In this document: piece by piece, positions 7,200 through 20,263 of the stretch
Position numbering within the stretch: the first letter of the stretch is position 1
How the letters are laid out: each line of letters opens with the position of its first letter
Assembly (NCBI RefSeq): GCF_002214385.1
Contig: NZ_CP014855.1
Location: 1,550,001-1,614,000 of the forward strand
Length of the DNA stretch: 64,000 nucleotides
Reading direction: 5' to 3'
Source of the DNA: Thermococcus gorgonarius
GTDB taxonomy: Archaea; Methanobacteriota_B; Thermococci; Thermococcales; Thermococcaceae
The notes under the pieces: model-generated
What the model saw: the letters and a program-made list of their open reading frames with translations, nothing else
The model's database searches: none
What the model was told of the DNA's origin: nothing
Made by a program: the position numbers and the translations under genes

Positions 7200-7228
7200 G
7201 AGGGTAAGACCAGAACTGGGTGAGATTC

Positions 7229-9244
7229 GTGGGAGAGGAAAAAAAGAAGAAGGAAAACTCCAGCTCCTGGATAGACGAGATACTTAGAGGGAAAAGCGAT
7301 CCCCTAGCAAATGTCTTCGAAAAGGAGAAAGAGAGCAAACAGACAGAAGAGATTCCTCTGCTATCAACGTCGTCCTCACCATTAGAGGAAATACTCGGCG
7401 GCAGAAGTGAAGAACCCCCCAAGAAGGCAAAGGATGAGGAAAAGAAAAAAATCTCTTCTGGAGCAGATATTATTTCAGCATTACTTGGAGGGAATGCAGA
7501 AGAAAAAACAATAACCTCTCTCCAAGAAGAAAAAACAGAAAAAGAAACGAAAAAAGAAACACCACCAAAGCCATCCGGCGTTGACATGCTCGGGGCGATC
7601 TTGGGTGGAGGAAGCTCAAGCCAGACAAAACCCCAAACACCAAAAAGAACAGCACCTCCGTTGCCGCTCCCCAAACCCAGAGCATCTCCGGGCCTCCAAG
7701 CTATAATTGGGGAGACCAGGTCTGAGGAGATATCCTATGACAGAAAGGCTCAAATTCTGGATGCTTACGGTAACGTAAGAATTTTGAAGATAAAGGAGGA
7801 ACCGGTCCCAATTTACGAACTTCGCCTTCCAAAACTTTCCAGAGAGGAAGAAGAACTCCTCGGGAGAGTCAGAGAAAGGGCAATAACTGAAATTCAGGTA
7901 GATCCCAGCATGATACCAAATTACGAGGAGAGGCGCAGGATATTCATGAGAGAAGTCAAAAGAATGCTGAAGGAAGCGGCGCCAAATCTATCGGAAGGAA
8001 GAATAGAGGTTATGGCCGAGCTGATAGTCCAGAATATGCTCGGATATGGCCTTCTGGATCCTCTCGTGAGGGACGACAACCTCGAGGAAATAATGGTCAT
8101 AGGAACCAACAAGCCAGTCTACGTTTGGCACAGGCGCTTCTACATGTGCAAGACCAACATAGTGTTCAAAGATGAGAGGGATATACTAAATATCATAGAG
8201 AGAATAGCCAGAGAAGTCGGGAGAAGGATTGACCAGCAGAGTCCTCTCCTCGACGCCCGCTTACCCGATGGAAGCCGTGTTAACGCCACAATACCCCCCA
8301 TAAGCCTTGATGGACCCACAATAACAATCCGTAAGTTCAAAAAGGACCCCCTGACGATAATAGACCTGATAAAGTACGGTACTCTGAACAGTGAGGTTGC
8401 TGCCTTTCTATGGCTCTTGGTTGATGGCCTTGGAGTAAAACCCGCGAACATTCTAGTGGCGGGAGGAACAGGTTCCGGAAAAACGACAACGCTCAACGCA
8501 CTGGCAATGTTCATACCACCAAGTGAGCGTGTTATCAGCATAGAGGACACCGCAGAACTCCAGCTTCCAGTGGAACACTGGGTTCGCCTCGAAACCAGAC
8601 CGCCAAACCTCGAAGGAAAGGGAGAAGTAACTATGGATGATCTAGTGAGGAACACCCTGCGTATGCGTCCGGATAGAATTATAGTCGGTGAGGTTCGCGG
8701 TCCCGAAGCGAGAACAATGTTTACAGCCATGAACACGGGACACGATGGTTGTATGGGAACCATACACGCCAACAGCGCCAGGGAGACAATAGTCAGGCTT
8801 GAGAGCCCGCCGATGAACGTCCCAAGAATAATGATCCCGGCTCTCGACATTATACTGATGCAGGTCCGCTTCCACAGCAGGAAAAAGGGAACCGTAAGGA
8901 GGGTAACTGAGATAGCAGAGGTTTCAGGAATAGAAGGAGATAACATACAGCTCAACAAGCTCTACAAGTATGACCCGGCAAGAGATGAACTATTGCCTAC
9001 AGAGGTTCCGAGCAGAGTAATGAACGAACTGTCCCGGCACACCGGGATGAGCATAAGCGAGCTGGAACTGGAACGAGAGAAGAGAAAGATAATCCTGGAA
9101 TGGATGATAGAAAAGGGAATCAGGAGCATCGAAGAAGTCGGCCACTACATCAAGATGTTCTACATTGACGAGGAAGCCTTGCTTGAAAAAATTGAGAGGG
9201 AAAGCTCCTCCGAACTCCAGGAGCAGATTCGGGCCCTAAAGTGA
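7229..9244 (+). CDS. Type II/IV secretion system ATPase (TadA/FlaI/GspE family)
   Basis: About 671 residues. The C-terminal 450 form a secretion ATPase: Walker A GGTGSGKT (about 412-419), an Asp-box region around SIEDTAELQ, Walker B IIVGEVRG (about 484-491), and a His-box with MGTIHANS. Such hexameric ATPases drive pilus or archaellum assembly from the cytoplasm. The first 160 residues are low complexity, Lys/Glu/Ser rich, and carry four copies of a short motif ending in (I/L)L-x-G. GTG 7229 has GGGTGA upstream; GTG 7220 would add three residues. Two platform proteins follow directly, so this is the motor of that machine. Confidence 0.92.
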   Translation: MGEEKKKKENSSSWIDEILRGKSDPLANVFEKEKESKQTEEIPLLSTSSSPLEEILGGRSEEPPKKAKDEEKKKISSGADIISALLGGNAEEKTITSLQEEKTEKETKKETPPKPSGVDMLGAILGGGSSSQTKPQTPKRTAPPLPLPKPRASPGLQAIIGETRSEEISYDRKAQILDAYGNVRILKIKEEPVPIYELRLPKLSREEEELLGRVRERAITEIQVDPSMIPNYEERRRIFMREVKRMLKEAAPNLSEGRIEVMAELIVQNMLGYGLLDPLVRDDNLEEIMVIGTNKPVYVWHRRFYMCKTNIVFKDERDILNIIERIAREVGRRIDQQSPLLDARLPDGSRVNATIPPISLDGPTITIRKFKKDPLTIIDLIKYGTLNSEVAAFLWLLVDGLGVKPANILVAGGTGSGKTTTLNALAMFIPPSERVISIEDTAELQLPVEHWVRLETRPPNLEGKGEVTMDDLVRNTLRMRPDRIIVGEVRGPEARTMFTAMNTGHDGCMGTIHANSARETIVRLESPPMNVPRIMIPALDIILMQVRFHSRKKGTVRRVTEIAEVSGIEGDNIQLNKLYKYDPARDELLPTEVPSRVMNELSRHTGMSISELELEREKRKIILEWMIEKGIRSIEEVGHYIKMFYIDEEALLEKIERESSSELQEQIRALK

Positions 9245-17460: not shown

Positions 17461-17602
17461 GTGCACCACCTTGATAGTTTTTAGGGCGTATGACCCATCC
17501 TTTAAGCAGTTTCCGGTGGGGGTAATCGGTTTTTACTCGCACGTTTAGATGAATATCGAAAAGGTTTAAAAGATTCCCGCCCAAAAATTTTCGGTGATTA
17601 GT

Positions 17603-19102
17603 ATGGAGTCGGTTTTCCAGAATGAAACGATAAAGGAAATTCTGTCGAGGTACAGGCGCATCTGGGCTATTGGCCACGCCCAGAGCGTCCTCGGCTGGGA
17701 CATGGAGGTCAACATGCCCAGGGAGGGCATCCTTGAGAGGAGCGTTGCCCAGGGCGAGTTAAGCGTCCTCAGCCAGGAGTTCCTCCTCAAGCCGGAGTTT
17801 GTAGAGCTCGTTGAGAAGGCCAAGGGGATTGAAGACCTCAACGAGTACGAGCGCGGTGTGGTTAGAGTCCTCGACCGCTCGATAAGGATAAGCAAGTCCT
17901 TCCCGCCGGAGTTCCTCAGGGAGATGAGCGAGGTTACGAGCCAGGCCACCAAGGCCTGGGAAGAGGCCAAGAAGAGCAACGATTACTCCAAGTTCGAGCC
18001 CTGGCTCGACAAAATTATTGATCTGGCAAAGCGCGCCGCTGAGTACCTCGGCTATGAAAACGAGCCCTACGACGCTTTGCTCGACCTCTTCGAGGAGGGC
18101 CTCACTACCAAAGAAGTCGAGAAAATGTTCGAGAAGCTTGAGAAGGAGCTCAAGCCGCTCCTTGAGAAGATAATGGAAGAGGGCAAAGTTCCGAGGGAGC
18201 ACCCGCTTGAGAAGGAGAAGTACGAGAGGGAGCAGATGGAGAGGGTGAACATCTGGATACTCGAGAGGTTCGGCTTCCCGCTCGGCGTTCGCGCGAGGCT
18301 CGACGTTTCCGCTCACCCGTTCACAACAGAGTTTGGCATTCGCGACGTCAGGATAACGACCAGATACGAAGGCTACGACTTCAGGAGAACTATCCTCAGC
18401 ACGGTCCACGAGTTCGGGCATGCTCTCTACGAGCTCCAGCAGGACGAGAGGTTCATGTTCAGCCCGATTGCTGGTGGAGTAAGCCTCGGAATCCACGAGA
18501 GCCAGAGCAGATTCTGGGAGAACATTATTGGCAGGTCGAGGGAGTTCGCTGGACTAATCTACCCCGTCCTGAAGGAGAACCTGCCCTTCATGGGCAACTA
18601 CACACCTGAGGATGTCTACCTCTACTTCAACATGGTTCGCCCGGACTTCATCAGGACCGAATCAGATGTGGTAACCTACAACTTCCACATACTCCTCCGC
18701 TTCAAGCTCGAGAGGATGATGCTCAACGAGGGCGTTAAGGCGAAGGATCTCCCTGAGCTCTGGAACGAGGAGATGGAGCGTCTCTTGGGCATAAGGCCGA
18801 AGACCTACACTGAGGGAATCCTCCAGGACATCCACTGGGCTCACGGAACGATAGGCTACTTCCCGACCTACAGCATCGGAACCCTCCTCGCGGCCCAGTT
18901 CTATTACCACATCAAGCGCGACATCCCGGACTTCGAGGAGAAGGTAGCTAAAGCCGAGTTCGAGCCGATAAAGGCCTGGCTCCGCGAGAGGGTCCACAGG
19001 TACGGCTCCATCTACCCGCCGAAGGAGCTCCTCAAGAAGGCCATCGGCGAGGAGCTGAACCCGGACTACTTCGTCCGCTGGGTGAAGGAGAGGTATCTGT
19101 GA
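17603..19102 (+). CDS. Thermostable carboxypeptidase, peptidase family M32
   Basis: 499 residues, the same length as the P. furiosus M32 carboxypeptidase. The zinc site is HEFGH at 269-273, with the third ligand E299 in GIHESQSR, identical in position to the P. furiosus enzyme as I recall it. DxRxT (DVRITTRY) and a C-terminal GTIGYFPTYSIG block are family hallmarks. It removes C-terminal residues from peptides in the cytoplasm using Co/Zn. ATG 17603 follows GGTGATTA; GTG 17594 is a less likely start. Monocistronic. Confidence 0.96.
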   Translation: MESVFQNETIKEILSRYRRIWAIGHAQSVLGWDMEVNMPREGILERSVAQGELSVLSQEFLLKPEFVELVEKAKGIEDLNEYERGVVRVLDRSIRISKSFPPEFLREMSEVTSQATKAWEEAKKSNDYSKFEPWLDKIIDLAKRAAEYLGYENEPYDALLDLFEEGLTTKEVEKMFEKLEKELKPLLEKIMEEGKVPREHPLEKEKYEREQMERVNIWILERFGFPLGVRARLDVSAHPFTTEFGIRDVRITTRYEGYDFRRTILSTVHEFGHALYELQQDERFMFSPIAGGVSLGIHESQSRFWENIIGRSREFAGLIYPVLKENLPFMGNYTPEDVYLYFNMVRPDFIRTESDVVTYNFHILLRFKLERMMLNEGVKAKDLPELWNEEMERLLGIRPKTYTEGILQDIHWAHGTIGYFPTYSIGTLLAAQFYYHIKRDIPDFEEKVAKAEFEPIKAWLRERVHRYGSIYPPKELLKKAIGEELNPDYFVRWVKERYL

Positions 19103-19104
19103 TT

Positions 19105-19377
19105 TCACATCTTCCCTATTCTTATTCTGTCTTCGTGGACGCTCACGATCTTCCCTTGAAAGTCTATATCCTTCGAAAGAAGAGCTTTGAGGTTTTTGTA
19201 AATGTATTCAACGTTTTTGGGAGGGAACCTCAGGAGTATTAAGCCTGGGAGCTTGAGGCCTTCAACGAAAAGTATGGTTCCAAAATCTCTGTCGAACGTT
19301 ATTAGAATCCGTCCCTCGTTGTTTGCCAGTCTTTTAACAACCCCGTAGGGGACGTTTTCATCAGCCAAAAACCCCAA
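19105..19377 (-). CDS. DUF5615-type PIN-like toxin, internally shortened
   Basis: 90 residues from a TTG start. The family core is present at both ends: FLADENVP at the N-terminus and NNEGRILITFDRDFG after it. DUF5615 proteins are usually about 110-120 residues and have a block of some 20 residues between these motifs (the second strand and helix). Here the two motifs are nearly adjacent, joined by YGVVKRLA, so an in-frame deletion is likely. It overlaps the DUF433 gene by 17 nt. This pair is a known toxin-antitoxin type arrangement; with the missing segment the nuclease-like fold is probably impaired. Confidence 0.75.
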   Translation of the reverse strand: MGFLADENVPYGVVKRLANNEGRILITFDRDFGTILFVEGLKLPGLILLRFPPKNVEYIYKNLKALLSKDIDFQGKIVSVHEDRIRIGKM

Positions 19378-19582
19378 CGTACTGCTCCTCCTTCAATATC
19401 ATGCTCGCATACCTGATCGCGGCGAGTATGTCCTCCCTCGTTAGCTGGGGATAGTTTTCCAGGATATCTTCGAAGCTCCACCCGTTGGCCAGGAGCTCCA
19501 GTATGAAGTAAACTGGTATCCTTGTGCCTTTAATAACGGGTTTTCCTCCCATCTTTCTTGGGTTGATCTCAATTCTCTCCAT
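19361..19582 (-). CDS. DUF433 antitoxin-like protein
   Basis: 73 residues. It has the classic DUF433 sequence pattern: RIEINPRKMGGKPVIKGTRI, then a helix-turn-helix-like VYFILELLANGWSFEDILENYP. DUF433 proteins are the presumed antitoxins and DNA-binding partners of DUF5615 toxins. ATG 19582 is chosen because GTGATG lies 3 nt upstream; two further in-frame starts add three residues. The downstream toxin gene overlaps it by 17 nt. Confidence 0.85.
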   Translation of the reverse strand: MERIEINPRKMGGKPVIKGTRIPVYFILELLANGWSFEDILENYPQLTREDILAAIRYASMILKEEQYVGVFG

Positions 19583-19653
19583 GCTCATCACATACTACTC
19601 CGTTAATCCTCTTAAAGAAATTTTCGGGGACAAGGGATACTGCTTAAATTATG

Positions 19654-19663
19654 ATGCATGCAT
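19654..19663. promoter_or_regulatory. Palindrome in the vapBC leader, candidate operator
   Basis: ATGCATGCAT is a perfect 10-bp palindrome located just after a TATA-like TTAAATTAT (about 19643-19651) and about 20 nt before the vapB start. VapBC complexes usually repress their own promoter through such inverted repeats. Confidence 0.35.
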
Positions 19664-19683
19664 TCAGTGTATTGGCGGTGCGA

Positions 19684-19875
19684 ATGGTTAAAACCATCAC
19701 AATCTCCGATGACGTTTACAAAGAGATACTCCGCATCAAGGGGGATAAGTCCTTCAGCGAGCTTCTTAGAGAGCTTTTAAGGGAAATAAAGGGCAACGCC
19801 GATGCCCTGCGACATATCGCTGGAATCCTAAACGAGGATGAGTATGAAGGGGCCAAAAAAGAATCAAAGGGCTAG
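19684..19875 (+). CDS. vapB: VapB-type antitoxin (VAPB_antitox family)
   Basis: 63 residues from ATG 19684, which has GGCGGTG 3 nt upstream. The sequence VKTITISDDVYKEILRIKGD, followed by SFSELLRELL, is the standard archaeal VapB/DUF217 pattern: a ribbon-helix DNA-binding part and a C-terminal toxin-binding tail. It precedes the PIN toxin gene by 16 nt. Since that toxin has lost a catalytic Asp, the antitoxin may now act mainly as a regulator, or the pair may be a relic. Confidence 0.88.
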   Translation: MVKTITISDDVYKEILRIKGDKSFSELLRELLREIKGNADALRHIAGILNEDEYEGAKKESKG

Positions 19876-19891
19876 AGGAGGCGTTTGACGA

Positions 19892-20263
19892 ATGGGGGCA
19901 GTCCTTAATACGAACATGATAATCGAAATAGCCAGGGGTAACGAGGACGTGCTCAACGCTGTCCTGGGGTTTGACAAAACCTTCTACGTGACTTCCATAA
20001 CGCGCTTTGAACTTCTGGTTGGTCTCCCAAGGAAAGATGACCTGATATGGCTGGACTCCCTCATTGAGCTTCCATTTGAGGGAAAATCCGCTGAGATTGC
20101 GGCTTACCTTCACAGAAAGCTGAGGGAAAAGGGAGCCCCGATGGGATTGAGGGACCTCTTCATCGGTGCCGTCTGCCTTGCCAACGATCTGCCTCTGATA
20201 ACACTCGACAGTGATTTTGAGGCTTTGAGGGATTTTGGTCTCACCGTGAGGTTGATCAGGTAA
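19892..20263 (+). CDS. vapC: VapC-like PIN domain protein with a substituted catalytic Asp
   Basis: 123 residues, normal PIN length. Expected acidic residues are E40 (ITRFELL), D88 (GLRDLF) and D106/D108 (ITLDSDF). The first catalytic Asp, normally in VLDTN, is Asn here (VLNTNMI, N6; codon AAT at 19907-19909). In VapC toxins this Asp binds the Mg ion needed for RNA cleavage, so activity is probably lost. The rest of the fold is intact, so it may still bind VapB or RNA. ATG 19892 has GGAGGCG upstream; it follows vapB by 16 nt. Confidence 0.88.
   Translation: MGAVLNTNMIIEIARGNEDVLNAVLGFDKTFYVTSITRFELLVGLPRKDDLIWLDSLIELPFEGKSAEIAAYLHRKLREKGAPMGLRDLFIGAVCLANDLPLITLDSDFEALRDFGLTVRLIR

Follow-up and report, generated by a model that had tools for sequence, protein, structure and literature searches.

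A VapBC toxin–antitoxin pair of Thermococcus gorgonarius, probably in early decay

VapBC pairs are the closest described systems to the locus considered here, and the excerpts of the literature that we draw on describe aspects of them that bear on it. VapC toxins are metal-dependent RNases with divalent ions in the active site (PMC7180214, in part), and type II antitoxins generally contact the toxin through their C-terminal part and DNA through their N-terminal part (PMC4803016, in part). The consequences of losing an active-site acid have been described for H. influenzae VapC1: in the excerpt of PMC4229260, neither the D6A form (present at a low protein level) nor the E43A form inhibits growth, and the D99N form, for which Cline et al. 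are cited there, is non-toxic, yet still binds VapB1 and the promoter. The pairing of a PIN protein with a COG1753 antitoxin is described as archaea-specific in the excerpt of PMC2701414.

We analyzed a stretch of 64,000 nucleotides from Thermococcus gorgonarius (hereafter, the window), in which a vapBC locus is found together with an adjacent pair of oppositely oriented genes (Table 1). The locus shares its PIN toxin, its PF02697 antitoxin, and its gene order with other VapBC pairs that have a ribbon–helix–helix (RHH) antitoxin of the PF02697 family, which we take to be the same as COG1753/DUF217; overlap of vapB and vapC is a feature of its relatives. Unlike other pairs of this type, the locus in the window has Asn in place of the first catalytic Asp of VapC, and its VapB is truncated by a frameshift. 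As we argue below, this is very probably a type II VapBC pair of Thermococcus in early or recent decay. Our literature search found no publication naming this locus, which does not prove its absence from print; a decaying VapBC pair as such is an already known kind of thing.

Table 1. Features of the vapBC locus and of the adjoining genes in the window
Feature	Position	Strand	Description	Basis
vapBC upstream region	19624..19683	+	Conserved AAAT-NN-GATGCATG element, perhaps promoter and operator	Comparison with relatives
vapB	19684..19875	+	Antitoxin (PF02697), frameshifted, 63 aa, ended by TAG at 19873-19875	Pfam, relatives
vapB frameshift site	19855..19861	+	One base fewer than in relatives, A-rich	Alignment with eight relatives
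Former vapB C-terminal tail	19854..19919	+	Out of frame; old stop TGA at 19917-19919; 28-nt overlap with start of vapC	tblastn, codons
vapC	19892..20263	+	PIN-domain toxin ORF, 123 aa, Asn6, otherwise full length	Pfam PIN match, 26-row alignment
Asn6 codon	19907..19909	+	AAT; Asp in the aligned relatives (n = 25)	Alignment, codon reading
DUF5615 ORF	19105..19377	-	90 aa; in-frame internal deletion of 75 nt (25 aa) near 19326-19332 relative to the 120-aa copy of G046	
DUF433 gene	19361..19591	-	Predicted antitoxin, 76 aa, full Pfam model match, adjoins DUF5615 ORF	

Asn6 and the likely loss of toxin activity

The product of vapC matches the Pfam PIN model PF01850 (2.5e-9; 38.2 bits against a cut-off of 23.6) and begins MGAVLNTN, with AAT as its sixth codon. 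We aligned it with 25 relatives that are 38-90% identical to it, taking one genome per species and leaving damaged homologs aside. Asn occupies column 6 in the window alone (1 of 26 rows) and Asp in all 25 relatives, and E40, D88, D106, and D108 are invariant across the 26 rows, such that three of the four PIN active-site acids (positions 6, 40, 88, and 106) are retained in the window and the one at position 6 is lost. These readings bear out a preliminary description of the locus, which had reported VLNTN in place of VLDTN, with AAT at 19907-19909, and the persistence of E40, D88, and D106. That description had also called the VLDTN motif invariant. Its Asp is found in more distant PIN proteins too: among distant PIN matches in the family (26-37% identical; rows beginning at query residue 4 or earlier and not already assigned to a locus, with matches to the C-terminal part alone left out), Asp stands at the motif in 35 of 35, two of which (L137 and L154) contain an internal stop, and among 15 other PIN matches in the organism's own genome, the N-terminal motif is legible in nine and has Asp in every one. 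Given the Asp in both the 25 relatives and the 35 distant matches, Asn6 is not ordinary family variation, and the change is genuine in the sequence as given. One of the damaged homologs (L027, in G049) has LETN in place of LDTN and contains a stop as well. The genome has another PIN-domain gene, lying outside the window (L035; G000:C1:1283182-1283577), that is split by an in-frame TAA and has the motif Asp.

The laboratory-made dead forms of H. influenzae VapC1 (D6A, E43A, D99G, and D99N) resemble the window toxin in having lost an active-site acid, and their toxicity is absent or reduced (PMC4229260, in part). The change in the window differs from them in being natural and in replacing Asp with Asn, and D6N has no occurrence in that paper. 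By analogy with these mutants, a set that does not include D6N, the window VapC is likely to be without RNase activity, or nearly so.

The vapC frame is nonetheless open from end to end, and its substitution pattern indicates that the gene has not been drifting for long. In comparison with the nearest relative (G060, 90% identical), and with substitutions assigned to the two sides by a simple outgroup-majority rule without a likelihood model, in vapC, 8 nonsynonymous and 16 synonymous changes fall on the window side and 5 and 12 on the G060 side, with 6 further synonymous changes unsettled; in vapB, 3 and 8 fall on the window side, with 2 nonsynonymous and 3 synonymous changes of unsettled direction. 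The 8 nonsynonymous against 16 synonymous changes imply that vapC was constrained during much of its divergence from G060 and, taken together with the open frame, that any decay must be recent. Within the stretch where the two genes overlap, the window-only changes in vapC fall in codons 6 and 9, and both are silent in the vapB frame (Leu, in the former frame, for the change to AAT), as if vapB were still constrained at the time, although two changes are too few to make this more than a weak hint that the toxin was altered before the antitoxin.

The same observations can be read in terms of domestication, in which a dead VapC and a VapB reduced to its RHH part would have been retained to regulate through DNA binding or to act as a decoy for related VapBC systems entering the cell. 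The vapC frame is still open throughout, as is that of the RHH half of VapB, and window-side vapC substitutions are mostly synonymous (16 to 8), as retention would have it; moreover, the dead D99N form of H. influenzae VapC1 retained binding to both VapB1 and the promoter (PMC4229260, in part), and exaptation of solo toxins or antitoxins, as well as roles for inactive PIN toxins, are raised as a possibility in a review exchange (PMC2701414, in part). We nevertheless consider domestication unlikely. Recency suffices to explain the open frames, and the N6 form, occurring in 0 of the 25 aligned relatives, gives no sign of conservation across the species aligned; further points against it come from the antitoxin.

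A truncated antitoxin

Contrary to the preliminary description, in which the whole vapBC operon looked intact, vapB in the window is frameshifted and truncated, at 63 aa in place of the 78 aa found in eight close relatives by alignment at the DNA level. Its N-terminal RHH part is preserved, matching PF02697 at 2.9e-18 over positions 1-62 of 69, and DNA binding is predicted. Its C-terminal end is not: the 19 residues that close the 78-aa form are out of frame and run on in another frame to 19917-19919, and the final four residues of the window protein are unrelated to the sequence of the relatives. In the eight close relatives aligned, the last vapB codons overlap the start of vapC, and in all 20 intact pairs vapB reads without a break into this overlapping tail. 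Neither the vapB lesion nor Asn6 is present in the intact relatives. Since type II antitoxins bind their toxins through the C-terminal part, the truncated VapB should no longer neutralize VapC, and the search for a second PF02697 antitoxin in the genome found none (one match in total). An intact operon with the toxin change alone was considered and ruled out by reading vapB in three frames against its relatives.

Loss of the expected VapC-binding tail makes a joint VapB–VapC regulator, as postulated under domestication, unlikely. Additional features of the antitoxin and its surroundings argue in the same direction. VapB has unusual changes on the window branch (F28L, E56G, and E63G, found in the window only by comparison with eight relatives; for L15I and K35I, the direction of change is unsettled), and in the upstream element the spacer is longer by one base, at three bases in AAAT-NN-GATGCATG as opposed to two in 20 of the 23 relatives shown, the other three being distant and without this layout. 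A related proposal, which we consider quite unlikely, is that the N6 VapC and the 63-aa VapB persist as a form of protection, as an anti-addiction or regulatory remnant in which VapB would repress related vapBC operators, VapC would soak up foreign VapB, or both.

The sequence at the lesion itself must also be considered, as it contains a run of six A, at which a shift of -1 would join the two vapB frames. One might accordingly imagine that the pair is still functional, with -1 frameshifting at the A-run, or slippage there during transcription, restoring full-length VapB and with Asn6 giving a weaker, useful RNase. We regard this as extremely improbable: vapB lies in a single frame in the 20 intact pairs, Asp occupies column 6 in every intact PIN protein examined, and in the eight aligned relatives the corresponding stretch includes bases other than A, so the deletion in a single genome has produced the slippery appearance as a side effect. 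Programmed frameshifting of vapB was likewise rejected as a candidate, because intact relatives read straight through.

A-runs are also a common context for sequencing indel errors, and a sequencing or assembly error, with the substitution, the one-base deletion, or both absent from the organism, would account for a deletion that adjoins such a run; similar indels occur in relatives with fragmented assemblies, where they may be errors themselves. We judge this explanation very unlikely here. The genome is a single contig of 1,674,122 bases (99.98% complete), and two errors would be needed within about 50 bases of each other in one operon, one of them exactly at a catalytic residue; in addition, neither the 75-nt deletion in the DUF5615 gene nor the remnants in sister genomes are of the sequencing-error type. 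As a coarse control, 48 ORFs of G072 (non-overlapping longest) were compared with the window, 12 of whose ORFs have no match in the G072 stretch. The comparison flagged 15 of the 48, apparently on account of in-frame stops ahead of the start codon, antisense shadows (those at 31.9-33.2 kb, 62.4-63.7 kb, and 11.6 kb being called so from ORF lists alone), one intein, and window ends; inspection by eye, which did not settle each flagged ORF individually, found no clear frameshift in the window.

Repeated erosion of homologous loci and adjoining genes

Close homologs of the locus allow a broader view of its fate. We tallied 34 such loci (L001-L027, L052-L056, L058, and L060, with L059 counted once as a repeat of L025) from 32 of 94 family genomes, the window's own included and G060 contributing three; left out were L057 (a different PIN protein, in G019), L028-L030, and more distant or short matches such as that in G052 (49% over 37 residues). 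Twenty of these loci hold an intact pair and 12 show damage, the other 2 being interrupted by contig ends. The locus in the window is one of the damaged ones and has a lesion in both genes, that of the toxin being presumably disabling. For several of the damaged copies the assembly is fragmented, and part of their damage may be errors. vapC is affected in 11 of the 12; in 3 of these 11 (L024, L027, and L058), vapB is whole or nearly so, and in the other 8 it is broken or not found (that is, without a match at 1e-3 in the stretch examined). Separate lesions, namely frameshifts and stops, are seen in the copies L017 (G066), L022 (G058), L024 (G055), and L027 (G049).

A similar picture emerges at a single chromosomal site. 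We compared ten relatives that share the upstream flanking gene (and that were picked for having a match in the region, not at random): vapBC is intact in five (G050, G046, G061, G060, and G031), damaged in two (G055 and G066), and reduced to a remnant in two (G072, in which the still-alignable vapC is a 126-bp stretch, and G067), and in G019 no vapBC was seen at the site. With the same site intact, damaged, or reduced to a remnant in different relatives, erosion of vapBC has been repeated. Toxin–antitoxin genes or remnants adjoin the 3' end of the flanking gene (17594-19102 in the window, presumably a carboxypeptidase) in the ten relatives compared (L062, L063, L065, and L113-L119; 19103-20270 in the window), which suggests a recurrent docking site for such genes.

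In the window, the genes at this site include the DUF5615 ORF, whose domain we take to be PIN-like; its open frame is 95 aa in the window, as against 120-128 aa in seven relatives. Together with the DUF433 gene it makes up an adjacent predicted pair on the strand opposite to vapBC, which recalls the pairing of DUF433 (COG2442) with a PIN-type partner (PMC2701414, in part); in contrast to that described pair, the partner in the window is a DUF5615 protein minus 25 internal residues. Elsewhere in the window, at 7208-9241 on the plus strand, lies a gene for a T2SSE secretion-type ATPase (type II/IV) without an intein, and the G072 relative is longer by about 510 residues, which match intein splicing and LAGLIDADG domains.

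Order of events and implications

Taken together, these observations are best accounted for by a course of decay in which the PIN toxin lost its first metal-binding Asp and would have become catalytically dead or nearly so; a dead toxin would leave nothing to restrain, and the antitoxin would be free to degrade. A one-base deletion, presumably later, removed the C-terminal toxin-binding tail of VapB, leaving the N-terminal RHH DNA-binding part, and the neighboring DUF5615 gene is damaged as well. We infer the order, toxin first and antitoxin second, from the expectation that a truncated vapB would be harmful alongside a live toxin and harmless alongside a dead one. One homolog (L017, in G066, an assembly of 170 contigs) has frameshifts in vapB and no obvious lesion in vapC, which argues against a strict toxin-first order unless these are assembly errors. 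The suggestions of the preliminary description fare differently in this light: that the toxin is probably inactive and the locus in early decay is strengthened by the truncated vapB, the DUF5615 deletion, and the eroded relatives, whereas a detoxified or domesticated regulator presupposed the intact operon and loses ground with it.

The locus reveals no new mechanism. It does provide a clear example of how a toxin–antitoxin pair may die, the antitoxin being safely lost after the toxin has been disarmed, and the related Thermococcus genomes, with intact, damaged, and remnant copies at one site, offer a possible small natural series in which the order of decay may be followed.
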